NCBI GenBank assembly: GCA_902826705.1
Contig: CADEFY010000003.1
Location: 1-35,773, forward strand
Length of the DNA stretch: 35,773 nt
Direction of reading: 5' to 3'
Source: an uncultured bacterium
Lineage (GTDB): Bacteria; Eisenbacteria; RBG-16-71-46
A program made the position numbers and the translations under genes. The notes beneath the pieces were generated by a model that was not told the origin of the DNA, ran no database searches, and saw only the letters and a program-made list of their open reading frames with translations. Within the stretch, counting starts at the first letter, position 1, and every line of letters starts with the position of its first letter. Positions 13,498 to 29,310 of this stretch are shown here, piece after piece.

Positions 13498-14346
13498 TCA
13501 GCCGAAGCGGCCCGTGATGTAATCCTCGGTCAGCTTCTGGCTCGGGCTGGTGAACACACGGCGCGTGTCGTCGAACTCGACCAGCACGCCCTGCAGCATG
13601 AACGCCGTGTGGTCCGAGATGCGCGCCGCCTGCTGCATGTTGTGAGTGACCACCACGAGCGTGTAGCGCCCCTTGAGATCGAGGATCAGCTCCTCGATCC
13701 GGGCCGTGGCGGTCGGGTCGAGCGCCGACGCCGGCTCGTCCATGAGGATCACCTCGGGCTCGACAGCCAGGCAGCGGGCGATGCAGAGCCGCTGCTGCTG
13801 CCCGCCCGAGAGCTGCATGGCCGAGCGGTCGAGCCGGTCCTTGACCTCATCCCACAGCGCCGCACGGCGCAGACTGTCCTCGACGCGCGCACCCAGTTCG
13901 CCGCGGTCGTCCAGGCCCAGCATGCGCAGTCCGAACGCCACGTTCTCGAAGATCGACTTGGGGAACGGGTTGGGACGCTGGAACACCATGCCCACGCGGC
14001 GGCGCAGCTCGACCACGTCGGTGCCCGGCGCCAGCACCGAGCGGCCCGAGACCTCGATCGCTCCTTCGACGCGGACGCCGGGGATCAGGTCGTTCATGCG
14101 ATTGAACGAGCGCAGCAGCGTGCTCTTGCCGCAGCCCGATGGACCGATGATCGCCGTCACGCTGTTGCTCGGGATCTGCAGGGTCACGCCCTTGAGCGCA
14201 TGGTGTGCGCCGTAGTGCAGCTGCAGCTCGCGCGCCGCCAGCCGGGGCACTCCCGCGGGCGCGGCAGGCTTGGGCTCGCCCGTGCGTGGCGGCACGGCGG
14301 GGCGTGTCACCAGTGAGGGCCTCGCATCGGTCATCTCCACAGTCAC
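13498..14346 (-). CDS. pstB: Phosphate ABC transporter ATP-binding protein PstB
   Basis: The protein (282 residues from GTG) has Walker [10 protein letters not shown] (68-76), the PstB-specific [15 protein letters not shown], the Q-loop motif [13 protein letters not shown], signature [13 protein letters not shown], Walker [14 protein letters not shown] and [14 protein letters not shown]. It powers uptake by PstCA at the inner membrane. The GTG at 14346 is chosen because GGAGG lies 7 nt before it, at the end of pstA; an ATG four codons later lacks a well-spaced site. It begins one base after the pstA stop. About 32 extra Pro/Ala-rich residues precede the usual PstB start. Confidence 0.95.
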
Positions 14347-14347: not shown

Positions 14348-15292
14348 TCAGCTCCTCCCGAGCAGCCGAGCACGCAGGCGCGCGCGCAGCACGATGGCGG
14401 TCAGGTTCAGCAGCAGCGTGAGCCCGAGGAGCACGAGCACGGTGCCATACAGGATGGGCCGTGTCGCCTCGACGTCGGGGGACTGCGTGGCCAGCACGAA
14501 CACGTGGTAGCCCAGTTCCATGAACTGGTCCGTGGGCGAACTGGGCAGGTAGGGCAGGAAGTAGGCCGCACCGGTGAACAGGATCGGCGCCACCTCGCCG
14601 GCGCCGCGAGAGACCGCCAGGATCGCTCCCGTGAGGATGCCCGGCATGGCCTGGGGCAGCAGCACGTAGCGCACCGTCTGCCAGCGCGTCGCGCCCAGCG
14701 CCAGAGAAGCCTCGCGCATCTCGCGCGGCACCGTCTTGAGCGCCTCCTCGGTGGTGACGATCACCACGGGCAGGTTGAGCACCGCCAGCGTGAGCGCGGC
14801 CCAGATCAGCGACGGCTGCCCCCAGACCACGTCGAGCCCGAGCCCCTGGTCGATCGAGCGGCCGACGAACTGGATGAAGAACCCCAGCCCGAACAGCCCG
14901 AACACGATGCTCGGCACGCCCGCCAGGTTGTTGACCGCGAACCGCACCGCCTGCGTGGTCCACGCGTACGGATCGGCGTACTCGTGCAGGTACACCGCGG
15001 CCCCCACGCCGAAGGGGATCAACGCGACCACCATGAGCAGCACGAGCAGCACCGTGCCGTAGATGGCCGGGAAGATGCCGCCCTCGGTCATGCCGTTGCG
15101 GGGGGCGCCGGCCAGGAACTCCCAGGTCACCGCCTGCCAGCCGTGCCCCACGATGTCGCCCAGGATCACCGCCACCATGAGTGCGATCAGTGCGGCGGAC
15201 AGACCCGAGAGCGCCGTGAGCGACACGCCCTGCACGTCGAACGCGCGGGCCCGCGGCAATGGGCGGACATCGCGCAGCGTGTCGCTGCTCAT
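14348..15292 (-). CDS. pstA: Phosphate ABC transporter permease PstA
   Basis: The 314-residue inner-membrane protein has about six transmembrane segments. It carries the BPD-transporter EAA loop in [26 protein letters not shown], and the PstA-typical [18 protein letters not shown] and [20 protein letters not shown]. It forms the phosphate channel with PstC. The ATG overlaps the pstC stop (ATGA, 15289-15292). Confidence 0.95.
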
Positions 15293-16233
15293 GCGCCCGC
15301 CAGCCGCTTGCGCAGCCGCTCGACGAACACGCCCGCCGCCACGTTGATGATGAACGTGATCGTGAAGAGCAGCGCGCCGAGGAAGAAGAGCACCGAATAG
15401 TGCGGGCTTCCCACCACGACCTCGGCCAGTTCTGCGGCGATGCTCGCGGACAGCGTGCGCACCGAGTCAAACGGGTCGCCCGAGATGATCGCGGCGTTGC
15501 CCGAGGCCATGAGCACGATCATCGTCTCACCGACCGCGCGCGCCAGCCCCAGTAGCACCGCCGCGCCCACGCCCGCCGAGGCCGCTGGCAGCGCCACGTG
15601 CCACGCGGTCTGCCACGGCGTCGCGCCCAGCCCCAGCGACGCCTCGCGGTACGACCGAGGAACGGCGCGCAGCGCGTCTTCGGCCACCGTGTAGATCGTG
15701 GGGATCACGCCCAGCCCCAGCGCGATCCCGGCGTTGACCGCGTTGAGTCGGATCGTGGAGCCGGTCCATTGCTGCAGCCACGACGCCAGCACCATGAGCG
15801 CGAAGAAGCCCATCACCACCGAGGGGATCCCCGCCAGGATCTCGATCACCGGTTTGATCGCCTCGCGCACGCGCGGGGAGGCGAACTCGGAACTGAACAG
15901 CGCCGCCAGCACGGCGAGCGGCGTGGCGAACACCATCGCCACCACGACCACTTTGAACGTGCCCACCAACAGGGGCACGATCCCGTACTTGGGCACGTCC
16001 CCCACCGGCTGCCAGAGCGGTGTGGCGAAGAACCCCGGAACGCTCGCCTCGCGCTGCGTCTCGCGGTCGAACAGCACCGGCGCCGCTTCACGGAACACGA
16101 AGACGATGATCAGCAGCAGCCCGACGACCGCGAAGAGCGCGCTGGAGCGAAGCGCGAACTCGATGAAGCGCTCGCGCCACAGCTGCATGCGGCGGTGGCG
16201 CGTGGCGTCGATGCCGGGGCGGAGGAGAGCCAA
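15289..16233 (-). CDS. pstC: Phosphate ABC transporter permease PstC
   Basis: The protein has 314 residues if the TTG at 16233 is the start, or 299 from the ATG at 16188 (MQLWRERFIEF). The TTG is preferred because GAGCAGG lies 8-9 nt upstream and the gap to pstS is then only 12 nt; the ATG has no ribosome site. The sequence has six membrane segments, the EAA-loop EDALRAVPRSYREASLGLGATPWQ, IPSVVMGFFALMVL and ARAVGETMIVLMASGNA, all typical of PstC. It pairs with PstA. Confidence 0.93.
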   Translation of the reverse strand: MALLRPGIDATRHRRMQLWRERFIEFALRSSALFAVVGLLLIIVFVFREAAPVLFDRETQREASVPGFFATPLWQPVGDVPKYGIVPLLVGTFKVVVVAMVFATPLAVLAALFSSEFASPRVREAIKPVIEILAGIPSVVMGFFALMVLASWLQQWTGSTIRLNAVNAGIALGLGVIPTIYTVAEDALRAVPRSYREASLGLGATPWQTAWHVALPAASAGVGAAVLLGLARAVGETMIVLMASGNAAIISGDPFDSVRTLSASIAAELAEVVVGSPHYSVLFFLGALLFTITFIINVAAGVFVERLRKRLAGA

Positions 16234-16245: not shown

Positions 16246-17079
16246 TCAGCGAAGGGGGAAGTAGCCGACCTGCGTCGCGAGCTGCTGGCCTGCGTCGGAC
16301 AATACCCAGTCCACGAAGCGCCGCACATCGCCTTCGGGCTTCTTGCGCAGATAGAAGTAGAGCGGCCGCGACAGCGGATAGCTGCCATCCTGCACCGTCT
16401 TCACATCGGGCAGCACCGCCGGCGCTGTGGCCGTACGCTTGAGCGCCACCTCGCGCACGCCCTTGGCATAGGCGCCGCCGCCGTAGCCGATGCCGTTGGC
16501 ATCCTTGGAGACCGCATTCACCACCGCGGCCGTGCCCGGGAGCGTCTGCGCCCGCGGGGAGAAGTCCCGGCCGCCCAGCACGACATCCTTGAAGAACACG
16601 TACGTGCCCGAGTTGTTCTCACGGCTGTACAGGATGATCGTGGCCTCGGAGCCCCCCACCTGCTTCCAGTTGGTGATGGTGCCCATGTAGATGCCCCTGA
16701 GCTGCTCGAGTGACAGCTCGCGCACCGGGTTGCTCGTGTGCACGTACACGGCCAGTCCGTCCTTCGCCACCGGGATCTCGATGCCGGTGGTCTGGAACCG
16801 GTCGCGGAGCTTGAGCTTCTCGTCGGGCTTCATCGCACGCGAAGACTGGCACACGTCGGTCGTGCCGTTGATCAACGCGGCGATGCCGGTGCCCGAACCG
16901 CCGCCGGTCACCATCACGACCTGGCCGGCGTTCTGGTTCATGTACGTCTCCGCCCAGCGCTGCCCCAGGATCACCATGGTGTCGGAACCCTTCACGGTGA
17001 TGCCGCGGCCCGCGTGCGATGGCACAGCGGCGAGCAGCGTGAACAGGACGGCGGCGCGCGCGTGGCGGGACGGACGCAA
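16246..17079 (-). CDS. pstS: Phosphate-binding protein PstS (second copy)
   Basis: This is a PstS-family periplasmic binding protein of 277 residues. A TTG at 17079 is the best start: GGGGAGG is just upstream, and it leads into a signal peptide (RAAVLFTLLAAVPSHA) and then the mature GRGITVKGSDTMVILGQRW. An in-frame extension further upstream only covers the porin gene in another frame. Phosphate-ligand segments are visible: GSDTM, TGGGSGTGIAALINGTTDVCQSSRAM and SRENNSGTYVFF. It is closely related to the copy at 18374-19216 (shared GSDTMVILGQRWAETYM, SRENNSGTY, QTLPGTAAVVNAV). It lies directly before pstC, as the transporter's usual binding protein. Confidence 0.9.
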   Translation of the reverse strand: MRPSRHARAAVLFTLLAAVPSHAGRGITVKGSDTMVILGQRWAETYMNQNAGQVVMVTGGGSGTGIAALINGTTDVCQSSRAMKPDEKLKLRDRFQTTGIEIPVAKDGLAVYVHTSNPVRELSLEQLRGIYMGTITNWKQVGGSEATIILYSRENNSGTYVFFKDVVLGGRDFSPRAQTLPGTAAVVNAVSKDANGIGYGGGAYAKGVREVALKRTATAPAVLPDVKTVQDGSYPLSRPLYFYLRKKPEGDVRRFVDWVLSDAGQQLATQVGYFPLR

Positions 17080-17093
17080 GGAGTGGCCTCCCC

Positions 17094-18377
17094 TCAGAAG
17101 CGGTGCTGGACCTGGAACGTCCACAGGTTGTCGTGCGGATCGGCGAAGCGGCCCGCCGTGGCGGCCACCTCGGTGCGGATGTCGTCGTAGGACACGCTGA
17201 GTCGCGTGTTGCCGTCGTAGAACAGGTTGAGCCCCAGGCTCCAGCGAGCGTACTGATCGTGATCCATGTCCACGTTGGGGTCGTAGCGGTCGTGGCGCAC
17301 CACGGCCTGCGCCCACTCCCCGACGCCCTGCACCCACATCACATAGCCGCCCTGGAAGTCCGTGGCCAGGTGCGAGGCGTCCGCGCCGGGGCGCAGGAGC
17401 CGCGCCTGCTGCGTGGCGGACACGTTCACCGTCTGCACCAGCGTGCGCAGCGAGTCCGCGTTGGTGTCGTGCCCCAGGTAGCCCTCAGCCGACAGCGAGC
17501 CGCCGCCCAGTCGCGGGAGCGTGAAGAACCACTGCGCGTCGACGCCGATGCGCTCGCGTGTGGGCCACACGTCAGGCCCAGAGAGCGGCACCACGTCGCG
17601 GCCGAACGCGTAGGAGCCCGCCACGTCGAGCCACCCCTCGGACCAGCGGGCCCGGCCCACGAAGTCCTTGCCGCGTGTCGGATCGGTGTTGGCGAAGTCA
17701 GGGTCGTTCACGCCCCCGCCGTTCAAGAGCGCGACCACCGTGCGCAGCTTGGGTGTCCACTGGTCCTCGAGCTTGATGCCGCGGTCGCGTTCGCCGCTGA
17801 ACAGCACGTTCTCGGCGCGCGAGCGCTCCGGCAGCTCGCGCGTGGCCGAGCTGCGCTCGATCTCGAACCCGAATGGCACGTTGAACTGCCCGATCGTGAG
17901 CTGGTGGTCCTGCATCGGCGTCCACCAGTCCTTGAGCGTCACGTAGGCCTCGAGCAGCCGCACCGTGCGGTCCTGGCCACCATCGAAGTAGACGACCCCC
18001 TGCGAGCGTGGCGAGGAGTCGTAGGTGAGCTTGATGCGGCCACGCCGGATGAAGAACCGCGACTGGTTCGCCACGGTGAGCGCAGCAGGCGACCCGCTGA
18101 CCCGCACCGAGTCACTGCTCGCCTCGCTCACCTCGAAGCGCGCCTGCACGTAGCCCGAGAGCTTGATCTTGCGGAGCTTGTCGGTCTCGGCCTGCAGGCC
18201 GAGCAACTGCTCGGTGAGGCCCTCGAGCAGCGCATGCACCTCCTCGCGCGAGATGCTGGCGGTGGCGGTCGTGTCCGCATCGGCTTGGGCGTGGACGGGC
18301 GCCGCGTGGAGTGCCGTGGCGAGGACGCACGAGGCCGCTGCTCGCCACGGCCAGGGCGATGCAGGACGTGCGGTCAC
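17094..18377 (-). CDS. OprP/OprO-like phosphate-selective porin
   Basis: The GTG start (18377) overlaps the stop of the upstream pstS (GTGA), so translation is coupled. The product has 427 residues: a signal peptide (cleavage near VHAQA), a short coiled-coil region (ISREEVHALLEGLTEQLLGL...KLRK), then a 16-strand-type barrel starting IKLSGYVQARFE and RRGRIKLTYD. It ends in a terminal aromatic strand (WTFQVQHRF), the C-terminal Phe recognised by the outer-membrane insertion machinery. N-terminal and loop features match the phosphate-selective porin O/P family (Pfam Porin_O_P). Placement between two pstS genes supports a role in phosphate or polyphosphate entry. Anion selectivity itself is not proven by sequence. 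Confidence 0.88.
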   Translation of the reverse strand: MTARPASPWPWRAAASCVLATALHAAPVHAQADADTTATASISREEVHALLEGLTEQLLGLQAETDKLRKIKLSGYVQARFEVSEASSDSVRVSGSPAALTVANQSRFFIRRGRIKLTYDSSPRSQGVVYFDGGQDRTVRLLEAYVTLKDWWTPMQDHQLTIGQFNVPFGFEIERSSATRELPERSRAENVLFSGERDRGIKLEDQWTPKLRTVVALLNGGGVNDPDFANTDPTRGKDFVGRARWSEGWLDVAGSYAFGRDVVPLSGPDVWPTRERIGVDAQWFFTLPRLGGGSLSAEGYLGHDTNADSLRTLVQTVNVSATQQARLLRPGADASHLATDFQGGYVMWVQGVGEWAQAVVRHDRYDPNVDMDHDQYARWSLGLNLFYDGNTRLSVSYDDIRTEVAATAGRFADPHDNLWTFQVQHRF

Positions 18378-19216
18378 GGGATCGGGAAGTAGCCCACGTC
18401 GAGCACCACGCGCTGGCCCTCGGGAGAGAGGCAGAAGTCGATGAACGCCTTGGCGTCGCCGGTGGGCGTGGTGCGCGTGTAGAAGTAGAGCGGTCGCGCC
18501 AGGGGGTAGCTGCCGTCGGCGATGGACGCTTCGCTCGGCGTCACGCCGGGCGTGGCGGGATCGCGTTTGAGCGCGATCATCTTGACGCCCTTGGCGTACG
18601 CGTCGCCGCCGTAGCCGATGCCGCGCGCATCCTGCGTGACGGCGTTCACCACCGCGGCGGTGCCCGGCAGCGTCTGCACGTCCGCGGCGAAGTCGCCGCC
18701 CTCGAGCACGTGCTCCTTGAAGTACGCGTAGGTACCGCTGTTGTTCTCGCGGCTGTACGCGATGATCGGCGCCGCAGGACCACCCAGGTCCTTCCAGTCG
18801 CGGACGCGGCCCGAGTAGATGTCCCGCACCTGCTCGATCGTCATCTCGTTCACCGGACACTGCTCGCTGACATAGATCGTCAGCCCGTCACGCGCGACGA
18901 CCTGCTCGAACGGTGGCTGTCCGTGCTTGGCGGCGATCTGCTGCTGTTCGTCGGCCTTCATGGCGCGCGAGGACTGGCAGATGTCGGTGGTGCCGTTGAT
19001 GAGCGCGGCGATGCCCGTCCCCGAGCCGCCGCCCGTCACCTGGATGATCTGCCCCGGGTGCGCGGCCATGTAGGTCTCCGCCCAGCGCTGGCCCAGGATC
19101 ACCATGGTGTCCGAACCCTTGAGCGTCACGACGCGGCGCGCTTGACCGCCACACTGCACCATGGAGACCGCGAGGATCAGCCCCGCGGCGTACACCAGGA
19201 ATCGCGATCGATGCAT
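18374..19216 (-). CDS. pstS: Phosphate-binding protein PstS (first copy, operon leader)
   Basis: This 280-residue PstS-family protein begins MHRSRFLVYAAGLILAVSMVQCGG; Cys22 could be a lipidation site, although Gln at -1 is atypical. The mature part carries KGSDTMVILGQRWAETYM, GGGSGTGIAALINGTTDICQSSRAM and SRENNSGTYAYF, which line the phosphate pocket in the family. A strong ribosome site (GGAGGAAGG) precedes the ATG. It is the first gene of the run pstS-porin-pstS-pstC-pstA-pstB-phoU and lies 62 nt downstream of a PHO-box-like repeat. Two binding proteins for one permease suggest different affinity ranges or location, one possibly lipid-anchored. Confidence 0.92.
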   Translation of the reverse strand: MHRSRFLVYAAGLILAVSMVQCGGQARRVVTLKGSDTMVILGQRWAETYMAAHPGQIIQVTGGGSGTGIAALINGTTDICQSSRAMKADEQQQIAAKHGQPPFEQVVARDGLTIYVSEQCPVNEMTIEQVRDIYSGRVRDWKDLGGPAAPIIAYSRENNSGTYAYFKEHVLEGGDFAADVQTLPGTAAVVNAVTQDARGIGYGGDAYAKGVKMIALKRDPATPGVTPSEASIADGSYPLARPLYFYTRTTPTGDAKAFIDFCLSPEGQRVVLDVGYFPIP

Positions 19217-19335: not shown

Positions 19336-19671
19336 TCAGTCGCGCGCCCGTCCCGGGGACCAGCGCCGGCGCCGCGCTTCGACGGCCCGGCGCCGGGCCT
19401 CCGACACGGCGCTCGCATGATCCAGCCCGGCGAGCGCGACGGCGCGCGCCCAGGTGCCGAACAACCGCCGCGCGCGCGCGTAGAGCGCGGGCTGATGCAG
19501 GTGCACGCGGAACAGCGTCTGCTGCTCGCTCAACTGGCGGATGCGGAGCAGCACTTCGTCCGGCTGCATCTCGAGCGGGCGGCCGCGCTTGCGGCCTGTG
19601 GGGGGCGTGGTCATGACGGCCGTCTCTCCGCGGGTGATCGACACCGCGATGGGCTCTTCGACGATGGACAT
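19336..19671 (-). CDS. Small basic AT-hook protein with HNH-associated-repeat-like domain
   Basis: The predicted product is 111 residues from the ATG at 19671 (TGGAG upstream). It carries GRKRGRP near residues 27-33, an AT-hook-type minor-groove motif. Then comes EVLLRIRQLSEQQTLFRVHLHQPALYARARRLFGTWARAVALAGLD. The LYxxARRxFGxWxxAxxxAG pattern resembles the short helical repeat found with homing endonucleases and in small DNA-binding proteins (HNH_repeat-like). The tail is very basic (EARRRAVEARRRR). I infer a small DNA-binding or architectural regulator. It sits 119 nt upstream of the pst operon, in the same orientation. A longer frame upstream exists but shows no better start. Confidence 0.6.
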   Translation of the reverse strand: MSIVEEPIAVSITRGETAVMTTPPTGRKRGRPLEMQPDEVLLRIRQLSEQQTLFRVHLHQPALYARARRLFGTWARAVALAGLDHASAVSEARRRAVEARRRRWSPGRARD

Positions 19672-19813: not shown

Positions 19814-20428
19814 TCAGTCCCGCAGGCTCTGCAACTTGAACTGCCCCTTGCGCTCCGCCACGGCGCGGACGTGCGGCAGCGCCACTTCGCGGCCGCTCTC
19901 GTCCCGCACCACGAGCGAGAGTCCGTTGTGCAGGCGGAAGTTGCGGAACACCGCGACGGTGTCCGTCCGGTCCCAGCGCACGAACACCAGGTGCTGGCCC
20001 GCGTACTCGTCGAGCAGCTTGGACACGCCGCCGCGCAGGCGGGCGTCCAGCAGGAACCAGGCGTCATCCGCGTGGAGGCCGGTGACCGGACGGCTCTGGG
20101 GGAACTCCCGCCAGAGGATCTCGTTGAACTCGGCGCGCGTGAGGCAGAGCCGGCGCAGCGAATCGGGGCTCGAGTGATGGATCGCGTGCACCAGCATGCG
20201 GCCCAGATGCTCCATGCTCGAGGCCCCGTCGCTGAAGCGCATGCTCACGAGAGGTGCGTTGAGGCGCCGCCCCAAGCGCACACTCGTCGACTCGGGGTCC
20301 ACGAGCGGCTTGTATCCCGGCGCGTCGCGAAGCGCCGGGTTGATCGATGACTGCTGGGCGGCGGCTCCCGTGGACAGGAGCAGCACGCAGACTGATGCGG
20401 GGAACCACCGGAGCGGGTGCGATCGCAT
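19814..20428 (-). CDS. Secreted protein of unknown function, coupled to TonB receptor
   Basis: The product is 204 residues from the ATG at 20428 (GAGG six bases upstream). An alternative ATG at 20440 would overlap the receptor stop as ATGA. A Sec signal peptide is clear (PASVCVLLLSTGAAAQQ). The mature protein contains a helical central part (MEHLGRMLVHAIHHSS...LCLTRAEFNEILWREFPQS) and a beta-rich end (LVFVRWDRTDTVAVFRNFRLHNGLSLVVRDESGREVALPHV). The order resembles small lipocalin/NTF2-like secreted proteins, but I do not recognise the family. Tight linkage to the TonB-dependent receptor suggests a periplasmic accessory of that receptor. Confidence 0.65.
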   Translation of the reverse strand: MRSHPLRWFPASVCVLLLSTGAAAQQSSINPALRDAPGYKPLVDPESTSVRLGRRLNAPLVSMRFSDGASSMEHLGRMLVHAIHHSSPDSLRRLCLTRAEFNEILWREFPQSRPVTGLHADDAWFLLDARLRGGVSKLLDEYAGQHLVFVRWDRTDTVAVFRNFRLHNGLSLVVRDESGREVALPHVRAVAERKGQFKLQSLRD

Positions 20429-20436
20429 GGCGGACC

Positions 20437-23304
20437 TCATGAGCCGAACGCCACGGACATCGACCACGCCGTGCCGGGCTTGGTGCGGTAGTACTCGACC
20501 GGGCCCTGATGCCCGGTGTACGTGACGTCGAGCAGGTTGTTGCCGGAGAGTTTGACGCGCAGATACGGAAGCGGCTTGAGATCGAGCGTGGCATCGACCG
20601 TGGTGAACGGGTCGTCATGGAAGTCCGGCGCCACATCGAAGCCCAGGCCCGCGAGCTTGCGACCCGTATGGCTCAGGAGCAGCGTGGCATCGATCCGCTG
20701 GTCGCCGGTCGCGTAGCCCAGCCCGACATTGAAGAGCCGGTCCGCCTGCCCCTGCAGGGAGTGCTCCCGGCGCACGGAGGGCGAGAGGGTCGGAGGCAGC
20801 GTGACTCGCGAGTCGATCCAGGAGGCGTTGGCGTTGACCGAGAAGCGCTGGAGAGGCGACCACACGCGTCCCAGCGACGCTCGGACCTCCAGCTCCAGGC
20901 CGCGGTTGCGGCCGCGTTCCGAGTTCACCGGGTAGAACAGCGGCTCGATGCTGCCGGCCGCCGAGATCTCGATCGGCTGGTGCATCTCCTTGAGGAACGC
21001 GCTCGCGGCGAACAGTTCGCCCAGTCCGGGGAACCACTCCACGCGCACGTCATAGTGATCCAGTCGCGCGCGCTCCAGATCCGGATTGCCGATGAACGTG
21101 AACCCCGGCAGATCGCGCATGCCCGGCACATAGTCCTCGATCCGCTGCGTGGCGAGTTCGTTGATGTCCGGTCGCGACAGCGTGCGGCTCGCACCGACTC
21201 GTACGTTGGTGCGCTCGTCCACGCTCCACGTGAGGTTGGCCGTGGGCAGCAGGTCGGTGTCGTCGAGCTCACCGAAGCTCGCGGTACGGGAGGACTGGAA
21301 CAGGTCGTAGCTGCGCAGCCGCTGCACGCCATGCTCGAGACGCGCGCCCAGCGTGGCGCGGAGCTTGCGCCCCATGGGCACGTCGGCGCTGACATAGGCC
21401 GCCGTCTGGCCCTGTTCCGCGTCATAGATGTCGTCGGGGAACGTCCACTCGGTGATGTCCGCGCCGGTGGTGGTCCCGGTCCAGTTCCCCGGGGCGAACA
21501 TCGAGTCCGCCGGCAGCGTCTCCTGCCCCTGCGGCGCACGCAGCTGGAAGCGGCGTGCCCACTGGAAGCGGTTCTTCCACTGGTCGCTCACGCCCACGGT
21601 CACCTTGCCGTTGCCGAGCGAGCCCAGGACGAATGGCGTCGACCAGTCGATCTCGGCGCCGCGCCCGCGCTCCTGCATGTCGCTGAACTCGCGCGTCGCG
21701 CCCCGGTTCTGCCCGCGCAGCACCCAGCGCACCTCCTCGATCACATGGTCGTCGTCGTCCACGTACGTGTTCACCTGCCGCGCGTAGTTCGCCTTGCGCT
21801 GGTCCGGGATCAGGCGGTCAGCGATCGAACGGCTGAGTTTCCACGACAGTCGCGACCCGCGCAGGTCGCGGAACTCGTGGCGCCCCTCGAGGCTCGCGGT
21901 GGTGATCGTGCGCTCGTTGTAGCGCAGGCGCGTGCCGCGGATCGAGTCCTGGCTGTCGTCCGACCAACCCTGGAAGAAGCGCGCCTCGTCCTCGGCCTCG
22001 CGATTCAGGAACGTACGCGCGTGCAGCGAGTGCGCCGGCGACAGGCGCAGGCTGAGCGCCGCGAGCCCGCCAAGGTTGACGCGGTCGAGCCCGCGCTCCA
22101 CCGAGCCGTCGAATCGCGGCTGCACGCCCGAGAGGTCGCCGCTCAGATCCTGCCCGAAGTAGTAGCGCGACGTCTCGCTGGAGATCTCCTGCGACCGGCT
22201 GTAGTTGCCGCTCGCCACCAGGCCCAGCGCCTTGCCGAAGATCCTGTACTCGTCACCGAATGTGAGGGCGTAGCTGCCGTTGGGAGACAGCTCTCCGCGC
22301 GTGACGCCCCATTCATTGTTGAACGAGCGGCCGATCGCGGCGCGCTCGGCGTTGGTGAGGCCGGTGCCGAGGACGCTGTTGAAGGTGGACACGCGCCGAC
22401 CCGCGGCGATCCGCAGCAGTGCCTGCGGGATCTCGCGCGAGCCCGCGCCCATGGCCCAGGCATCGCGGCTGGAGCCGCCATAGCGCAGCCCCTGCTCGAA
22501 CGTGCTGCCGGCCTCCATGCTCTGGCCTGCGGAGAACGACCACTGCCGCTGGCCCGGGAAGTCCTTGGTGCGCACCTGCACGTCTCCCCCGCCGAACTCC
22601 GCAGGGCGATCGGCCGTGTAGGTCTTCTGCACCGTGATGTTCTCGAGCAGATTGGCCGGGATGATGTCCAGCGGCACGACGCGCTTGTTGAGTTCGGGGC
22701 TCGCCAAGCGCACGCCGTCGACCTCGGTGGAGCTGTAGCGCTCCCCGAGCCCGCGCACGAACACGAACTTGCCCTCGTTGACCGACAGCCCGGTCACGCG
22801 CTTGAGCACGTCGCCCGCGTCCTTGTCAGGGGAGCGCCGCACCTGCTCCGCGCTCACTGCGTCCGACACGGCCGCAGCCTTCTGGCGGATCGTGAGCAGC
22901 GCGTTCTCGGTGTCCTGACGGCGCCGCGCCTCGACGACGATCTCCTCCTGCTGGATCGCCTCGGGGGAGAGCGCCACGGTCAGTTCCTGGACGCGCCCGG
23001 GCTCGACCGCGATGCCCGCGAGGTCCTTGCGCGCGTACGACAGCGCCTGGACGCGCAGCGTGTACGTGCCTCGCGCGGCGGCCAGGTCGAACGTGCCGTC
23101 ACTGTTCGTCATGCCGCCGACCCGCTTGAGCGTGGTGTCCGCCGGGATCAGCAGCAGGTTGATGAACGACATGGTCTCGCCGGTGTCCTTGGCGATGACC
23201 TTGCCGCGCACGTGTCCAGCGGACTGTGCGAACGCCGCGGGCGGCGAGGTCGAGGCGAACCACAGCAACGTGGCCGCGAGCAGCGGCCGGAGATGGTGCG
23301 ACAT
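20437..23304 (-). CDS. TonB-dependent outer-membrane receptor with carboxypeptidase-regulatory-like domain
   Basis: The 955-residue protein has a signal peptide (to AFAQ, residue 27). Residues 30-110 form a CarboxypepD_reg-like beta-sandwich (HVRGKVIAKDTGETMSFINL...GTYTLRVQALSY). A TonB-box-like EEIVVEA follows (120-126). The plug domain spans about 145-250 (VRRSPDKDAGDVLKRVTGLSV, FVRGLGERYSSTEVDGVRL, PLDIIPANLLENITVQKTYTADRPAEFGGGDVQV). The rest is a long beta-barrel with many aromatic-alternating strands, ending SMSVAFGS. Such receptors import large or scarce substrates with energy from TonB. The gene is placed between the phoRB/beta-helix genes and pst, so phosphate or a phosphorylated organic substrate is plausible but unproven. 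The start follows GAGG by 9 nt. Confidence 0.9.
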   Translation of the reverse strand: MSHHLRPLLAATLLWFASTSPPAAFAQSAGHVRGKVIAKDTGETMSFINLLLIPADTTLKRVGGMTNSDGTFDLAAARGTYTLRVQALSYARKDLAGIAVEPGRVQELTVALSPEAIQQEEIVVEARRRQDTENALLTIRQKAAAVSDAVSAEQVRRSPDKDAGDVLKRVTGLSVNEGKFVFVRGLGERYSSTEVDGVRLASPELNKRVVPLDIIPANLLENITVQKTYTADRPAEFGGGDVQVRTKDFPGQRQWSFSAGQSMEAGSTFEQGLRYGGSSRDAWAMGAGSREIPQALLRIAAGRRVSTFNSVLGTGLTNAERAAIGRSFNNEWGVTRGELSPNGSYALTFGDEYRIFGKALGLVASGNYSRSQEISSETSRYYFGQDLSGDLSGVQPRFDGSVERGLDRVNLGGLAALSLRLSPAHSLHARTFLNREAEDEARFFQGWSDDSQDSIRGTRLRYNERTITTASLEGRHEFRDLRGSRLSWKLSRSIADRLIPDQRKANYARQVNTYVDDDDHVIEEVRWVLRGQNRGATREFSDMQERGRGAEIDWSTPFVLGSLGNGKVTVGVSDQWKNRFQWARRFQLRAPQGQETLPADSMFAPGNWTGTTTGADITEWTFPDDIYDAEQGQTAAYVSADVPMGRKLRATLGARLEHGVQRLRSYDLFQSSRTASFGELDDTDLLPTANLTWSVDERTNVRVGASRTLSRPDINELATQRIEDYVPGMRDLPGFTFIGNPDLERARLDHYDVRVEWFPGLGELFAASAFLKEMHQPIEISAAGSIEPLFYPVNSERGRNRGLELEVRASLGRVWSPLQRFSVNANASWIDSRVTLPPTLSPSVRREHSLQGQADRLFNVGLGYATGDQRIDATLLLSHTGRKLAGLGFDVAPDFHDDPFTTVDATLDLKPLPYLRVKLSGNNLLDVTYTGHQGPVEYYRTKPGTAWSMSVAFGS

Positions 23305-23346
23305 GGGGAAGGCCCTCGATCGGGAAGGTGTCGGGTCCTCGGGGGG

Positions 23347-23363
23347 CGTCACATGGAGTGACG
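23347..23363. promoter_or_regulatory. Palindrome upstream of TonB-dependent receptor
   Basis: CGTCAC-N5-GTGACG is a perfect 6-bp-arm palindrome 43-59 nt before the receptor ATG. Its GTCAC/GTGAC halves resemble the GT(T/A)AC halves upstream of pstS, though the repeat period is 10 rather than 11 nt. It is a candidate operator, possibly for PhoB. Confidence 0.3.
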
Positions 23364-23379
23364 TGCGGAAGACGCCGCG

Positions 23380-23403
23380 GGGGGCGGGCTCGCGCCCGCC
23401 CCC
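23380..23403 (-). terminator. GC-rich hairpin after the beta-helix gene
   Basis: A perfect 10-bp stem (GGGGGCGGGC against GCCCGCCCCC) with a 4-nt loop lies 27 nt after the beta-helix stop on the minus strand. There is no strong U-run (only TCTT soon after), so it may be a partial terminator or an RNA-end stabiliser separating that gene from the receptor gene. Confidence 0.5.
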
Positions 23404-23429
23404 TCGTGGCGTTTGGATCGTGACTTGGA

Positions 23430-26400
23430 TCACTGCACTCGCACGAACTTGCCGCTGACCTGTTCGCCGTTGGCGCGCACGCGGTAGAAGTACGTGCCGG
23501 CCGGGAGCTGGCCGTCGGTGTCCCACGTGAGCCGGTGCGAACCTGCGCCACGCTCGCCCTCGGCCAGTGTGTGGACGAGCCGGCCATCGGCCGCGAACAG
23601 CTGCACCGAGACACGGCCCGCACGCGGCAGCGAGAAGAGGATCTGCAGCGCACCGCGGACCGGATTGGGCGAGGCGAAGGCCGCCAGCGCACGGCCGTCG
23701 CTCACCGGCACGTCCGTGGTGAACTGGCTGCACTGCACGCCCGGGCTGGTCACGAAGTCCCGGTCCGCGCAGTGGTTTCGGAACGTCTCGGCGCCGTTGA
23801 GCTCGAGTGCGTTGCTCTTCCAGTACGCGATGATCGAGTTGAGCACGACGCCGCCCGTGCCGCGGCGCAGGTGGATGCCGTCGGTCACCAGGCCCGGACC
23901 GGCGCCCAGGTCGCCGAGGATCGTGAAGTTGGCCAGCGTCGGGTTGGAGCGGCCCGAGCACAGCTCGGTGGCATTGCTGAACTCGTTGTTGTCTGCCTCG
24001 ATGCCGCGCTCGGCGCCGTTGTCGCTCGCCAACTGGCGGATCACCACGAACTGCGCCTTGCCGCGATAGCCGAGCTGCCAGTCGAACCCATCGTCCTGCC
24101 CGTAGGTGAGCAGCATGTTGCGCACCTGGGCGGTGCCGCCGAAGAACTCGAGCAGGTCATCGGACCCACGGTGGCACTGCACGTTCTCGATGATCGTGCC
24201 CGAGCCGACGCCGTTGAGCGTGAGCCCGTTGGCCTCGTTGTTGGTCGCGAACGTGACGCCCGCGAACTCGATGCGCAGGTAGCGCAGCACGCCCGAGTCG
24301 TCCGCGTCGTCGTTGCCGCCGAAGTAGCCGATCAGGCCGCCCTCGGAGGCGGCCGAGTCGCCGGCGCACGAGTTGACCACGTTGGTGCGGGCGTAGCCGT
24401 TGATGAACAGGCCGCCGACGCCGCCCGGTGTCTGCGAGCCCGGCGCCGCGTCCGACGTGATGATGATCGGCGCGAACGGCAGGCCGCTGGCGATGATGTC
24501 GGCGCCACGCTCGATGATGATCGTCCCCGTGGTCGCCGTCTCCTCGAAGATCACCACGCCCGGCTGCACCGTGAGCGTGGCCTGCGACTTCACGCGGAGC
24601 TGGCCGCGCACGAGGTAGTTGGAGTCCGCCGAGAACGTGCGGTCGGAGTACAGGTCCTGGTTGTCGAGGACCACGACCGGCCGCACCGGGAACGTGCGTC
24701 CGCTGCCGTCGAGACCGTAGTAGGTCCAGCCCGCGGCCCAGTCCTCACCCTGCCCCATGCCGCCGACGAAGCACTCCTTCTCGAAGAACAGGTCCTTGGG
24801 GACGTTGACCACCTTGCCGTGGCCCGCATTGCCGGCGTACGCCGGGCTGCCGAACGCCGGAACCCAGTCCGGAGCCGCCACGTCGAGCGCGCCCGTGAGC
24901 AGCGGATCGACCGACGAGTTGTTGAGGTACTGCGACGTGGCGATCAGCGCCGTCGTGGAGTCGCGCCCCGGCACACAGGGGCTGCCAGCGGACGCCGCGC
25001 CGCCATACAGGCCGCCGCTGGCGCTGAAGACGATGTTGCCGTCGAACACGATCGGGTCGGGGTCGAGGCTGGAGCTGCACGCCGTGGGCGGCGTCAGCGC
25101 TGCGATGCCCGCACGGTCGCTGCAGTGGTTGATGAACGTCTCGGCGCCGTTGAGCTCGAGTGCGTTGCTCTTCCAGTACGCGATGATCGAGTTGAGCACG
25201 ACGCCGCCCGTGCCGCGGCGCAGGTGGATGCCGTCGGTCACCAGGCCCGGACCGGCGCCCAGGTCGCCGAGGATCGTGAAGTTGGCCAGCGTCGGGTTGG
25301 AGCGGCCCGAGCACAGCTCGGTGGCATTGCTGAACTCGTTGTTGTCTGCCTCGATGCCGCGCTCGGCGCCGTTGTCGCTCGCCAACTGGCGGATCACCAC
25401 GAACTGCGCCTTGCCGCGATAGCCGAGCTGCCAGTCGAACCCATCGTCCTGCCCGTAGGTGAGCAGCATGTTGCGCACCTGGGCGGTGCCGCCGAAGAAC
25501 TCGAGCAGGTCATCGGACCCACGGTGGCACTGCACGTTCTCGATGATCGTGCCCGAGCCGACGCCGTTGAGCGTGAGCCCGTTGGCCTCGTTGTTGGTCG
25601 CGAACGTGACGCCCGCGAACTCGATGCGCAGGTAGCGCAGCACGCCCGAGTCGTCCGCGTCGTCGTTGCCGCCGAAGTAGCCGATCAGGCCGCCCTCGGA
25701 GGCGGCCGAGTCGCCGGCGCACGAGTTGACCACGTTGGTGCGGGCGTAGCCGTTGATGAACAGGCCGCCGACGCCGCCCGGTGTCTGCGAGCCCGGCGCC
25801 GCGTCCGACGTGATGATGATCGGCGCGAACGGCAGGCCGCTGGCGATGATGTCGGCGCCACGCTCGATGATGATCGTCCCCGTGGTCGCCGTCTCCTCGA
25901 AGATCACCACGCCCGGCTGCACCGTGAGCGTGGCCTGCGACTTCACGCGGAGCTGGCCGCGCACGAGGTAGTTGGAGTCCGCCGAGAACGTGCGGTCGGA
26001 GTACAGGTTCTGGTTGTCGAGGACCACGACCGGCCGCACCGGGAACGTGCGTCCGCCGCCGTCGAGCCCGTAGTAGGTCCAGCCCTGCGTCCAGTCCTGC
26101 TGCGTGCTGCCGATCGCGCCGACATAGTCGACCTGCTGGAAGAACCCGTCGTTGGGCAGGTCCAGCACCTGATGCTGGCCATTGGCGCAGAACGCCGGCG
26201 AGCCCGCGGCCGGCCGCCAGTTCGGGACGGCCACGTTCAGCGCGCCGCCGAGCAGCGGGTCGAGGTTGGAGTTGCGCGTGAACTGCGTGGTGGCGATGAG
26301 CGCCGTGGTGGAGTCGAGGCCCGGCAGACACGGGCTGCCGGCAGAGGCCGCGCCGCCGTACAGGCCGCCGCTGGCGCTGAAGACGATGTTGCCGTCGAAG

Positions 26401-26510
26401 ATGACCGGATTGACCTGGGCCGCGGCTTGAGTCGCGAAGCCGGCAGCGAACGCCAGCAGGGCGGCCAGACGTCGGACCGTGCGTGCGGCGTTCGCGTGAT
26501 CGATGCGCAT
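23430..26510 (-). CDS. Large secreted beta-helix-type protein with internal duplication and FlgD-like tail
   Basis: The 1,026-residue protein starts at an ATG with GGAGG upstream. It has a signal peptide (RLAALLAFAAGFATQAAAQ). Two tandem units of 451 residues follow (from about 35 and 486). Each begins PVIFDGNIVFSASGG or PIVFDGNIVFSASGG and leads into a parallel-beta-helix-like region with the recurring phrases GTIIIERGADIIASG, GGVGGLFINGYA, YFGGNDDADDSGVLRYLRIE, DDGFDWQLGYRGKAQFVV and GIHLRRGTGGVVLNSII. The C-terminal 90 residues form a FlgD/Por-tail-like Ig domain (SPNPVRGALQILFSLPRAG, LPAGTYFYRVRANG), often a sorting or anchoring element in FCB-type bacteria. Proteins with these phrases commonly accompany TonB-dependent receptors. 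I infer a surface or extracellular partner of the receptor encoded next; its ligand is unknown. Confidence 0.85.
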   Translation of the reverse strand: MRIDHANAARTVRRLAALLAFAAGFATQAAAQVNPVIFDGNIVFSASGGLYGGAASAGSPCLPGLDSTTALIATTQFTRNSNLDPLLGGALNVAVPNWRPAAGSPAFCANGQHQVLDLPNDGFFQQVDYVGAIGSTQQDWTQGWTYYGLDGGGRTFPVRPVVVLDNQNLYSDRTFSADSNYLVRGQLRVKSQATLTVQPGVVIFEETATTGTIIIERGADIIASGLPFAPIIITSDAAPGSQTPGGVGGLFINGYARTNVVNSCAGDSAASEGGLIGYFGGNDDADDSGVLRYLRIEFAGVTFATNNEANGLTLNGVGSGTIIENVQCHRGSDDLLEFFGGTAQVRNMLLTYGQDDGFDWQLGYRGKAQFVVIRQLASDNGAERGIEADNNEFSNATELCSGRSNPTLANFTILGDLGAGPGLVTDGIHLRRGTGGVVLNSIIAYWKSNALELNGAETFINHCSDRAGIAALTPPTACSSSLDPDPIVFDGNIVFSASGGLYGGAASAGSPCVPGRDSTTALIATSQYLNNSSVDPLLTGALDVAAPDWVPAFGSPAYAGNAGHGKVVNVPKDLFFEKECFVGGMGQGEDWAAGWTYYGLDGSGRTFPVRPVVVLDNQDLYSDRTFSADSNYLVRGQLRVKSQATLTVQPGVVIFEETATTGTIIIERGADIIASGLPFAPIIITSDAAPGSQTPGGVGGLFINGYARTNVVNSCAGDSAASEGGLIGYFGGNDDADDSGVLRYLRIEFAGVTFATNNEANGLTLNGVGSGTIIENVQCHRGSDDLLEFFGGTAQVRNMLLTYGQDDGFDWQLGYRGKAQFVVIRQLASDNGAERGIEADNNEFSNATELCSGRSNPTLANFTILGDLGAGPGLVTDGIHLRRGTGGVVLNSIIAYWKSNALELNGAETFRNHCADRDFVTSPGVQCSQFTTDVPVSDGRALAAFASPNPVRGALQILFSLPRAGRVSVQLFAADGRLVHTLAEGERGAGSHRLTWDTDGQLPAGTYFYRVRANGEQVSGKFVRVQ
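23781..24732 (-). repeat. Direct repeat, C-terminal copy within beta-helix gene
   Basis: This tract matches 25134-26085 at a constant offset of 1,353 nt. I see no difference from 23781 to 24655 (875 nt) and three single-base differences after that (24656, 24704, 24714). Flanking parts of the same units are diverged but collinear. Confidence 0.92.
25134..26085 (-). repeat. Direct repeat, N-terminal copy within beta-helix gene
   Basis: Partner of 23781-24732. The offset is exactly 451 codons, so the reading frame and repeat phase are conserved. The same offset also holds for a shorter conserved patch near 26355-26400 versus 25002-25047. Confidence 0.92.
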
Positions 26511-26836: not shown

Positions 26837-28588
26837 TCAGCGGACGGCGGCGACCGCGCGCAGCGGGATGCGGAACGAGAACGTGGAGCCCTCGCCCGGC
26901 GTGCTCTCGAGCGAGACCTCCCCCGCGTGCAACTGGATCGCATGCTTCACGATCGACAGCCCGAGCCCGGTGCCGCCCTTCTCGCGCGAGCGGGCCTTGT
27001 CGACACGGTAGAAGCGCTCGAACACCCGCGGCTGGTCCTCCGCCGGGATGCCGGGACCGGTGTCGCGCACCTCGAACCAGGCGAACGCATCGTCGGCGCC
27101 CAATCGCACCGTCACGCGGCCGCGCTCGGTGTACTTGACCGCGTTGTCGAGCAGGTTGGCCATGGCCTGCTCCAACTGCACCCGGTCGCCCTCCACCCAC
27201 ACCGATCCGCCGGACACCAGCTCCAGCGGAGTGTCTGCGACGCGCGCAGCCTCGCGCAGCGCCGCCACCTGACGCTCCGCGGCGGCACGCAGGTCGAAGC
27301 GCTCGCGCCGCAGCGTCACGTCCGGCCGCTCGAGTTCGGCGAGCGACAGCAGGTCCTCGACCAGGGCCTGCAGACGCACGGCCTGGTCGCGGATGATGTG
27401 CACGAAGCGCTCGCGGTGTTCGACATCCTCGAGGCCGCCCTCGGCGAGCGTCTCGGCATAGCCGCGAAGCGAAGTGAGCGGCGTGCGCAGCTCATGCGAC
27501 ACGTTGGCCACGAAGTCCTGGCGCAGCCGCTGCAGGCGCTCGGACTCCGTGAGGTCGTGCAGCACCAGCAGCACGGGTGCCGGCGCCGGGCCGCCGAGCG
27601 GCGTGGCGGTGACGCGCAGCACCTGCGCGCGCGGCGACCACAGCCGCAGCTCGCGTTCGACGGTGCGCGCCTCGCTGCGGGCCGCCTCGAGCAACTCGTC
27701 CAGGTCGGGCACGCGCGCGAACGCCTGGAACAGCGTGCCGGGCTCGGCCGGGCGGGCGGCGCCGAGCAGCGCGGCGAGGCGGTGGTTCACATGCACAACG
27801 CGCCCAGCGCCGTCCACGAGCGCGACCCCGTCGCTCATGTGCGCCAGGATGCGCTCACGATCGTCGCGCTCACGCTGGAGCGCCTCGACGCGCAGCCGCA
27901 TCTCGCGCTCCATCTCGTTGAGCACGCGACCCAACCGGCCGAGGTCGTCGGCCGGCACTTCCGCTGCGCGCGGCGCCAGGCCCTCTCGACCGATGCCGCG
28001 CGCCACACGCTCCAGCGCGTGCACACGGCCCGCGAACCGCCCCGACAATCCGAACAGCAGCGCGAAGCCGGCCAGGATCACGCCCATCGCAGCCAGGAGC
28101 GAGTCGCGCAACGACGGGGCGTGCGTCGCGCGCACGGCATCGACAGGCTCCGCCACGCGAACCACGGCCACGGGACCCGGCCCGCGGGCGGGCACCGCCA
28201 CGTACACGTACTCCACGCGCGTGCTGCGGCTCATCCGCAATGAGCGGCCGGTCCTCCCGCCGAACGCGGCCACCACCTCGGGCCGGTCGGAGTGGTCATC
28301 GAGCTGCGCGAGTGGCACTCGCGAGTCCGCCAGCACACGGCCATCGCGGGCGATCAGGGACACGCGCAGCGCGTACGTGGAATCGGCTCGGCTCGCGATG
28401 GTGGCGAACGCCTGTGCCTCCTGCACGTCGCCCGCCACGGCGACCGCCGCGCGCTCGAGGGCCGTGCCGTGCAGCTGCAGCAGCCAGCGGCGTTCCGCCT
28501 GCAGCGCGAGCAGCGTGAGCGCGGTCGCCACCGCCACCACGACGAGGCCGTGCGTGAGCAGCAGCCGCGTGCGCAGCGACAGGGTCAC
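26837..28588 (-). CDS. phoR: Phosphate-regulon sensor histidine kinase PhoR
   Basis: The 583-residue kinase starts at GTG, 3 nt after the phoB stop. Order of parts: TM1 (about 8-30), a periplasmic sensor region of about 130 residues (31-162), TM2 (164-184), HAMP (185-237), a PAS domain (240-345, RILAHMSDGVALVDGAGRVVHVN), HisKA with FVANVSHELRTPLTSLRGY (phospho-acceptor His365), and HATPase with N-box QAMANLLDNAVKYTERG, DTGPGIP and GGTGLGLSIVKH. The PAS-HisKA layout and the phoB linkage make PhoR the best call. E. coli PhoR lacks a large periplasmic domain, whereas this protein has one, like PhoR/PnpS of Gram-positives. The next operon downstream encodes the pst transporter and PhoU. Confidence 0.88.
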   Translation of the reverse strand: MTLSLRTRLLLTHGLVVVAVATALTLLALQAERRWLLQLHGTALERAAVAVAGDVQEAQAFATIASRADSTYALRVSLIARDGRVLADSRVPLAQLDDHSDRPEVVAAFGGRTGRSLRMSRSTRVEYVYVAVPARGPGPVAVVRVAEPVDAVRATHAPSLRDSLLAAMGVILAGFALLFGLSGRFAGRVHALERVARGIGREGLAPRAAEVPADDLGRLGRVLNEMEREMRLRVEALQRERDDRERILAHMSDGVALVDGAGRVVHVNHRLAALLGAARPAEPGTLFQAFARVPDLDELLEAARSEARTVERELRLWSPRAQVLRVTATPLGGPAPAPVLLVLHDLTESERLQRLRQDFVANVSHELRTPLTSLRGYAETLAEGGLEDVEHRERFVHIIRDQAVRLQALVEDLLSLAELERPDVTLRRERFDLRAAAERQVAALREAARVADTPLELVSGGSVWVEGDRVQLEQAMANLLDNAVKYTERGRVTVRLGADDAFAWFEVRDTGPGIPAEDQPRVFERFYRVDKARSREKGGTGLGLSIVKHAIQLHAGEVSLESTPGEGSTFSFRIPLRAVAAVR

Positions 28589-28591: not shown

Positions 28592-29287
28592 TCAGCTCGT
28601 GGCGGGTTCGGGCGCGACGAACTTGTACCCGGCGCCGGTCACGGTCTCGATCATCGGGTGCGACTCGCCGAGCTTCATGCGCAACCTGCGCACGTGCACA
28701 TCGACGGTGCGGGTCTCGCCGAGGTAGTCATAGCCCCACACCTTGCGCAGCAGCTCCTCGCGCGACAGCACGCGGCCCGCATGCCGCGCGAGGAACGCCA
28801 GCAGGTCGAACTCGCGCGGCGTGAGCGTGAGCCGCTTGCCCTCGAGCGTGACCTCGCGCGACTGGGCGTCCACACGCAGCGCGCCGCGCTGGATCGCCGG
28901 GGATTCCTTGCCGGGCTTGGAGCGCCGCAACAGCGCCTGCACGCGCGCCACCAGCTCGCGCGGACTGAACGGCTTGGTGAGGTAGTCGTCCGCGCCATGC
29001 TCGAAGCCGAGCAGCTTGTCCATCTCGGCGGCGCGCGCCGTGAGCACGATCACCGGAAGGTCCTGCGTGGCCGGCTCGCCGCGCACCTCGCGCAGGATCT
29101 CGAGCCCGTTCTGGCCGGGGAGCATCAGGTCGAGCACGAGCGCGTCGGGGCGCGCGGCGAACACCTGGCGCAGCCCGTCGTCGCCGTCGCTCGCGACCGC
29201 GACACGGAAGCCCGCGCGCTCGAGGTTGTAGCGCAGGAGGTCGCGGATCTCCTTCTCGTCTTCGATCACCAGCACGAACTCGGGCAC
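28592..29287 (-). CDS. phoB: Phosphate-regulon response regulator PhoB
   Basis: The 231-residue OmpR/PhoB-family regulator has a receiver domain (1-120) with Asp10/Glu11 acidic pocket, phospho-acceptor Asp53 (VLDLMLPGQNG), Thr83 (VLTAR) and Lys105 (LTKPFSP). The winged-helix DNA-binding domain is about 130-228 (LTPREFDLLAFLARHAGRVLSREELLRKVWG, VDVHVRRLRMKLG). The start is GTG at 29287 with AGGAGG five bases upstream; no ATG start fits. It is transcribed with phoR from a TAGCAT -10 element and is divergent from the GNAT gene. Confidence 0.93.
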   Translation of the reverse strand: MPEFVLVIEDEKEIRDLLRYNLERAGFRVAVASDGDDGLRQVFAARPDALVLDLMLPGQNGLEILREVRGEPATQDLPVIVLTARAAEMDKLLGFEHGADDYLTKPFSPRELVARVQALLRRSKPGKESPAIQRGALRVDAQSREVTLEGKRLTLTPREFDLLAFLARHAGRVLSREELLRKVWGYDYLGETRTVDVHVRRLRMKLGESHPMIETVTGAGYKFVAPEPATS

Positions 29288-29304
29288 AGGGCCTCCTGCC
29301 GCGC

Positions 29305-29310
29305 ATGCTA
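29305..29310 (-). promoter_or_regulatory. -10 element of phoBR
   Basis: TAGCAT on the minus strand, 18 nt before the GTG of phoB, would give a very short leader of about 10 nt that still contains AGGAGG. No PHO box is evident beside it. Confidence 0.35.

Follow-up and report, generated by a model that had tools for sequence, protein, structure and literature searches.

What do a TonB-dependent receptor (TBDR), a large beta-helix protein and a small secreted protein do when they lie between phosphate-regulatory genes and a phosphate transport operon? The question is raised by the window, a 35,773-nucleotide stretch of DNA from a Candidatus Eisenbacteria MAG (genome 83% complete), in which the genes concerned share the minus strand and follow the transcription order phoB-phoR, beta-helix, TBDR, small gene, then pstS-porin-pstS-pstC-pstA-pstB-phoU. 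The gene order, strand and coordinates given in an earlier note on this DNA proved correct, and the features are as follows.

28592..29308, minus strand: phoB-like OmpR-family response regulator adjoining phoR; best NCBIfam match TIGR02154 PhoB (252 bits, under the cut-off of 296)
26837..28588, minus strand: phoR-like histidine kinase with HAMP, PAS, HisKA and HATPase domains (Pfam); NCBIfam PnpS (357 bits) and TIGR02966 PhoR (307 bits), both below cut-off
23430..26510, minus strand: ElpS/FI-FII-like secreted beta-helix protein, 1026 aa, with signal peptide, two ~450-aa units and FlgD_ig/T9SS-type C-terminal tail (AlphaFold and Foldseek)
25125..26423, minus strand: first of the two beta-helix units, spanning residues 30-462 and sharing 90% identity with the other
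23721..25061, minus strand: second beta-helix unit, residues 484-930, retaining the invariant acidic ladder
20437..23304, minus strand: TBDR of the ElpS-partner subfamily, 955 aa; CarboxypepD_reg, Plug and TonB barrel (Pfam), assigned by receptor scores and tree
19814..20440, minus strand: small secreted protein with WxEFPxSRP motif, 208 aa, the conserved third component, overlapping the receptor gene
19336-19671: 111-aa ORF between the small gene and pstS1
18374..19216, minus strand: pstS1 phosphate-binding protein (TIGR02136 over cut-off)
17094..18371, minus strand: OprP-like porin, weak family match (Porin_O_P)
16246..17133, minus strand: pstS2 (TIGR02136 over cut-off)
15289..16197, minus strand: pstC (BPD_transp_1 and operon position)
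14348..15292, minus strand: pstA (BPD_transp_1 and operon position)
13498..14316, minus strand: pstB (TIGR00972 over cut-off)
12738..13424, minus strand: phoU (TIGR02135 over cut-off)

The TBDR stop codon and the first ATG of the small gene share an ATGA overlap, and the proposed translational coupling of these two genes is therefore real. The trio is separated from phoR by 326 bp and from pstS1 by about 600 bp. The porin, previously described as OprP-like and part of the pst operon, is indeed flanked on either side by one of the cluster's two pstS genes and is kept beside pstS in relatives as well, but its family match is weak, with a Porin_O_P score just under the curated Pfam cut-off (19.6 against 20.9 bits, E=6e-4). 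Upstream of the Eisenbacteria modules, direct repeats with an 11-bp period did not exceed GC-rich chance. Searches with the E. coli consensus likewise gave no Pho box in the window beyond GC-rich chance, and a scan found no sigma-70 promoter or terminator patterns, as expected at 71% GC; co-transcription thus remains putative.

In the 1,026-aa protein, Pfam recognised FlgD_ig (above cut-off), Beta_helix and a sub-cutoff Por_Secre_tail, while the NCBIfam Por_Secre_tail model (TIGR04183) scored above cut-off, which together with FlgD_ig identifies a C-terminal sorting domain of the T9SS cargo type. Some 90 further sorting tails occur elsewhere in the host genome; the sole match there to SprA, of the T9SS machinery, covers 50 residues and falls below cut-off in this 83% complete genome. 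No lipobox for surface lipoprotein anchoring is visible in the signal peptide, the T9SS/FlgD tail being present instead; Poribacteria homologues have lipobox-like starts. The duplicated architecture with its FlgD-like tail had been recognised correctly: the copies recur with a period of 1,353 bp and include an 875-bp exact DNA match. An assembly artefact is disfavoured as the origin of the duplication: the flanks are dissimilar between the copies, at about 45-90% DNA identity per 60-bp block, and proteins of 2-3 units occur in other lineages, so the gene duplication is likely real. A repeat-consensus effect in the MAG may account for the exactness of the 875-bp match.

Alignment of 22 beta-helix sequences (Eisenbacteria, Bacteroidota, Proteobacteria and others) revealed 26 invariant columns, and an acidic ladder, a new finding here, is common to all 81 beta-helix units compared (in the second unit E759; D784, D785 and E788; D806, D807 and D810; E838 and D840). 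By its appearance this ladder is a candidate metal or catalytic site, and the preference expressed earlier for a binder over an enzyme is not supported. A PDB sequence search with the beta-helix profile returned no credible match; the AlphaFold model matched right-handed beta-helix proteins and FlgD in Foldseek, with fold likeness to pectate lyases, polygalacturonases and phage depolymerases. The predicted fold resembles that of PL3 pectate lyases and GH28 enzymes (Foldseek probability about 1, TM about 0.6 on PL3 target length), with which it would also share acidic residues on neighbouring coils, whereas sequence identity is about 10%, the conserved set is different and any activity of the beta-helix here is putative.

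The small protein has 208 residues from the first ATG; the 204 residues previously given hold if the second ATG (20428) is used. It was described as a secreted unknown, and it has no Pfam or NCBIfam match and no credible PDB match in a profile sequence search, while Foldseek of its model gave nothing at E<=1e-3 and only weak SEC-C/NTF2/ketosteroid-isomerase-like matches. It is more than a random unknown: it was found solely beside the beta-helix/TBDR module, and among 47 Eisenbacteria genomes all 13 of 13 full-length copies fell within the 15 that carry the beta-helix (Fisher 7e-10, in a test that ignores phylogeny). Judged from its sequence distribution, it is a conserved third component of the module, which is new here.

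The beta-helix/TBDR pair itself is of an already known kind, matching by synteny and published identities the ElpS/CC0171 pair of Caulobacter and the FI/FII-TBDT pairs of Flavobacterium. ElpS (CC0170) of Caulobacter crescentus is a surface lipoprotein which is induced by phosphate starvation and raises extracellular phosphatase activity, and its gene adjoins TBDR CC0171 and a T2SS cluster (PMC2996285). ElpS passes the outer membrane without help from the neighbouring T2SS; its production is not abolished by deletion of CC0171, CC0171 RNA is reported to be constitutive and intracellular phosphate was unchanged as far as detected (PMC2996285). Alphaproteobacterial homologues on Sphingomonas and Indioceanicola plasmids share the betahelix-TBDR-T2SS order. 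Unlike the lipoprotein ElpS, which is encoded beside a T2SS, the window protein combines two beta-helix units with a T9SS-type tail, shows no visible lipobox, lies by phoBR/pst and is accompanied by an extra small gene. In Flavobacterium johnsoniae, PUSIV comprises Fjoh_0542 OprP, PhoR, PhoB, TBDT 0545 and FII 0546, and PUSIII comprises TBDT 3857 and FI 3856; FI/FII and the corresponding TBDTs belong to the genes most strongly induced by Pi depletion, a response which is Pi-specific and absent under Fe or N limitation, and FI-FIII are 31-36% identical to the Caulobacter protein (PMC8115612). That cluster of phoBR, OprP porin, TBDT and polygalacturonase-like surface protein resembles the window, although FI/FII are Bacteroidota lipoproteins and the published cluster table has neither pstSCAB nor a counterpart of the WxEFPxSRP gene. 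SusC/SusD and PusC/PusD are similar in outline, each joining a TBDR to a surface ligand-binding protein, but the partner here is a beta-helix rather than a TPR-like SusD (no SusD domain was among the Pfam matches at the window module) and no glycan-degrading locus surrounds it.

A TBDR adjoins the beta-helix homologues in nearly every locus seen, the exception being one conjugative-plasmid beta-helix locus without an annotated TBDR. All 59 partner TBDRs scored at least 153 bits against the window receptor, compared with 41 bits for the best of the control TBDRs, which came from 40 loci in the same set of genomes, and all 59 lie together on one side of a branch with 100% support. By these scores and this tree, the partner TBDRs form a subfamily of their own, which goes with the beta-helix across at least six lineages and is likewise new here.

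When the neighbourhoods of homologues were compared, as the earlier note had proposed, PhoB-like, PhoR, Pst or PhoU genes were found in the sequence of 20 kb or less retrieved around 24 of 50 homologous loci and around none of the 40 control loci, or 12/50 against 0/40 with PhoB-like regulators excluded, in Fisher tests that ignore phylogeny and with Bacteroidota and Proteobacteria sampled through plasmids and papers only. Further examples of the association come from additional genera and families within Eisenbacteria, from two more phyla and from Alteromonas, where a plasmid has the order phoB-phoR-pstS-betahelix-TBDR-ExbB/D-TonB; two genomes of another phylum (L051, L118) have Pho islands largely alike in gene content without the small gene. 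The other 26 of the 50 loci have no Pho gene nearby, and their sampled neighbours look unrelated; the Bacteroidota and alphaproteobacterial plasmid examples have none either (in Parabacteroides, a pair without any Pho neighbour). This is close to the point at which the earlier note would have given up the link, namely homologues generally lying away from Pho genes. The Pho link of the module, new here, is real but not universal. Our literature search found no paper on Eisenbacteria TBDRs and phosphate.

We regard the locus as probably the form that the ElpS / FI-FII plus TBDR module takes in Eisenbacteria, serving acquisition at the outer membrane and switched on by phosphate starvation, because of the published induction of its relatives (PMC2996285, PMC8115612) and the enrichment of Pho genes near homologues. 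The loci without Pho genes, the missing Pho box and the published findings on CC0171 and intracellular phosphate (PMC2996285) speak against it. To this extent the three-gene phosphate system first proposed finds support; the particular ligands named for it (phosphoesters, nucleotides or DNA) do not. Among the 20 neighbour genes sampled near Pho-less loci, no pattern of phosphatases, nucleases or phytases emerged. Directly supported are the order of the genes, their domains, the translational coupling, the module-specific receptor subfamily, the three-gene grouping and the statistical Pho association, and the module probably works as follows. PhoR-PhoB would induce its genes; Sec would export the beta-helix protein, whose FlgD-like tail would then direct it along a T9SS-type pathway to the surface, where its two units and their acidic ladder would capture or trim a phosphorus-bearing ligand. 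The dedicated TBDR, to go by its family, would import the product, the small protein, given its strict co-occurrence, may work with the receptor or the beta-helix at the envelope, and the porin and the Pst transporter with its two PstS proteins would then let phosphate in.

A rather doubtful alternative is that the pair serves general-purpose surface capture and uptake of glycans or other polymers, Pho genes merely reflecting joint carbon and phosphate mining of such polymers and phosphate not defining the substrate. The lyase- and depolymerase-like fold, the plant cell-wall targets suggested in PMC8115612, the roughly half of loci without Pho genes and the Parabacteroides pair would all suit it; set against these are a Pho association far above that of control TBDRs, the Pi-specificity of the published induction and the finding that 0/20 sampled neighbour genes are carbohydrate-active. 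Less probable again is a receptor that displays, releases or signals through the beta-helix instead of importing, with the beta-helix an effector which, for instance, activates or anchors extracellular phosphatases. ElpS production persists without CC0171 (PMC2996285), the export tag varies by lineage (T9SS-type tail here, lipoprotein elsewhere), which makes a special exporter unnecessary, and some loci have a dedicated TonB/ExbBD typical of import, even though the T2SS-independent crossing of ElpS and the increased phosphatase activity (PMC2996285), the alphaproteobacterial pairs adjoining T2SS and the specificity of the receptor to the module would fit such a role. That genome shuffling made the trio a chance Pho neighbour in a single genome, with no regulatory or functional link, is very improbable given the recurrence of the association across lineages, despite the gaps isolating the trio and the missing Pho box.

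Returning to the acquisition system, it is conceivable, if somewhat unlikely, that the module is a widespread and largely uncharacterised SusCD alternative, in which a dedicated TBDR subfamily works with an acidic-ladder beta-helix and, in a number of phyla, with a third component of the periplasm or envelope from an unnamed family (possibly NTF2-like in fold); Eisenbacteria and others would use it when starved of phosphate to import one specific polymer that contains phosphorus. Modules of this kind have scarcely been studied, yet they are induced by phosphate exhaustion in laboratory bacteria of two other groups, and ElpS-like proteins rank with the most abundant secreted proteins of some bacteria in that state. 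A single receptor subfamily across at least six lineages, frequent Pho neighbours and, in several lineages, a third unnamed protein make a defined module out of an orphan observation, one that is testable in laboratory strains already available and is relevant to bacterial access to organic phosphorus.

The contig belongs to a 3.3 Mb genome (completeness 83%) whose close relatives bear the name Candidatus Eisenbacteria, and we recovered the gene order and strand set out in the earlier note, whose description of the locus was accurate. Read in the direction of transcription, the minus strand carries phoB-like, phoR-like, beta-helix, TonB-dependent receptor (TBDR) and small genes, a 111-aa ORF, pstS1, an OprP-like porin gene, pstS2, pstC, pstA, pstB and phoU. 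The window has the following features:

32277-35409, (+), dnaA and dnaN, right end of the window
23430-26510, (-), gene for the secreted beta-helix protein, 1,026 aa
23761-25413, (-), exact DNA repeat of 875 bp within the beta-helix gene, its flanks diverged
20437-23304, (-), TBDR gene
19814-20440, (-), gene for the small secreted protein, 208 aa, its ATG overlapping the TBDR stop as ATGA
19336-19671, (-), ORF for a basic 111-aa product, flanked by the small gene and pstS1
16246-19216, (-), two pstS genes, one each side of the porin gene

PhoU, PstB and both PstS assignments scored above curated cut-offs; the PhoB and PhoR calls were best or near-best matches yet fell under theirs, and the porin scored just under the Pfam cut-off. 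A pstS-porin arrangement is also present in two relatives (L037, L042). The 111-aa ORF had no match in NCBIfam; its counterparts (50–53% identity) adjoin Pst/porin genes in those two relatives and a third (L041), and it is possibly a small Pst-linked DNA-binding protein. Because dnaA and dnaN occupy the window's right end, the Pho island lies near the likely replication origin.

A TBDR adjoins the beta-helix gene in 15 of the 16 first relatives (the exception sits at a contig end), in Poribacteria loci wherever contigs extend far enough, in nearly all loci from two further phyla, and on plasmids of Alteromonas, Pseudoalteromonas, Indioceanicola, Sphingomonas, Hymenobacter, Aureibacter and Parabacteroides; a Marinobacter plasmid locus is an exception. 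With the window receptor as query, all 59 partner receptors scored at least 153 bits; the 40 control TBDR loci, drawn from the same genome set, yielded just six receptors, the best at 41 bits. In a FastTree tree, which contains long branches, all 59 lay on one side of a fully supported branch. Weak, distant beta-helix relatives were present in two control loci. The pair is hence a conserved unit made of two specific subfamilies. At the loci of Alteromonas macleodii (plasmid pBGP9) and Pseudoalteromonas, the beta-helix protein has three units, and the neighbouring TBDR comes with its own DUF3450-ExbB-ExbB-ExbD-TonB set.

Genes for a PhoB-like regulator, PhoR, Pst or PhoU occurred within the retrieved stretch at 24 of 50 beta-helix loci (Eisenbacteria and two other phyla) versus none of the 40 control loci (Fisher 3e-8), and PhoR, Pst and PhoU alone at 12 versus 0 (Fisher 4e-4), counts that truncated contigs bias downwards and p-values that shared ancestry makes too small. 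In L051 and L118, both from another phylum, the genes phoB, phoR, TBDR, beta-helix and pstSCAB-phoU occur together, in L051 with the porin in addition, and the Alteromonas plasmid has the order phoB-phoR-pstS-oxygenase-betahelix-TBDR-DUF3450-exbB-exbB-exbD-tonB. The neighbours of the remaining half of the loci, where sampled, were ordinary and unrelated; the Pho link is therefore frequent, not obligatory.

Caulobacter ElpS (CC0170) is a surface lipoprotein made under phosphate starvation that raises extracellular alkaline phosphatase activity; it is conserved in Shewanella and Bacteroides, its gene neighbours the TBDR gene CC0171 and T2SS genes, and the co-occurrence of elpS and cc0171 homologues has already been pointed out (Le Blastier et al. 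2010, PMC2996285). The Flavobacterium johnsoniae proteins FI, FII and FIII are polygalacturonase-like surface proteins with 31–36% identity to ElpS; no exoprotein is more abundant than FI when phosphate is depleted, and depletion induces both FII and its TBDT, whose genes are clustered with phoBR and oprP (Lidbury et al. 2020, PMC8115612). The Caulobacter PhoB regulon includes T2SS, Pst and various TBDRs (2024 study, PMC11208175). The window locus appears to be of the same kind as the ElpS and FI-FII systems, in another phylum, a kinship based on the family alignment, the betahelix-TBDR-T2SS order of Sphingomonas and Indioceanicola (the same as that of Caulobacter elpS) and the two former papers.

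The small protein had no match in Pfam, NCBIfam or PDB. Scanning 84,980 species genomes for the protein's conserved motif, WxEFP[QEA]SRP, yielded 14 relatives, from Eisenbacteria, Poribacteria and one MAG labelled just 'bacterium', all adjoining the beta-helix and/or partner receptor gene, with the contig ending where one is missing. A full-length copy occurs in 13 of 47 Eisenbacteria genomes, all among the 15 that bear the beta-helix gene (Fisher 7e-10). Two further phyla each have roughly five loci with the small gene beside the beta-helix gene; the plasmid loci of Proteobacteria and Bacteroidota lack it. At those Poribacteria loci that were read completely, the small protein is lipoprotein-like and a TonB-like gene follows. 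In its model (pLDDT 83), helices at the N-terminus precede a seven-strand sheet; Foldseek returned weak NTF2-like and SEC-C-like matches and nothing stronger. It is natural to infer that this protein acts in the envelope with the partner receptor.

The beta-helix protein comprises two units of ~450 aa (spacing 1,353 bp, 90% protein identity) that are identical in DNA over 875 bp, while the N-terminal parts flanking this match have diverged; the repeat stems either from gene conversion or duplication in the recent past or from the assembly, as a repeat-consensus effect. Two- or three-unit proteins also occur in Indioceanicola, Alteromonas/Pseudoalteromonas and several genomes of two other phyla, and in most multi-unit proteins the copies are closer to each other than to any outside copy, a pattern that implies repeated duplication or concerted evolution. 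The C-terminus is a FlgD_ig/T9SS-type tail, one of ~90 in a genome where SprA gave a sub-threshold match only. For one unit together with the tail, AlphaFold gave a model of modest confidence (pLDDT 67 overall, mostly >80 in the helix), which matched right-handed beta-helix proteins (PL3 pectate lyase, polygalacturonase, tailspikes) in Foldseek, and the tail matched FlgD. In the 81 units compared, which come from every lineage sampled, residues E723, E759, D784, D785, E788, D806, D807, D810, E838 and D840 show little or no variation; the spacing between DDxxE and DDxxD is exactly 22 residues, roughly the length of one beta-helix coil, so that the two probably stack and form an acidic patch.

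The best-supported reading is that the trio would be a phosphate-starvation outer-membrane acquisition module, induction being published for relatives only. The surface beta-helix may capture or trim a phosphorus-bearing ligand, TonB-dependent import would come next, and phosphate would then be taken up via Pst. Of this reading, the family assignment and the Pho association were put to the test. The phosphate-source system proposed in the earlier note is right in outline; the ligands named there (phosphoesters, nucleotides or DNA) were over-specific. A known yet scarcely understood module is extended to a new phylum and gains a previously undescribed third component; its partner receptor is now defined as a subfamily, and the invariant acidic ladder offers targets for mutagenesis.
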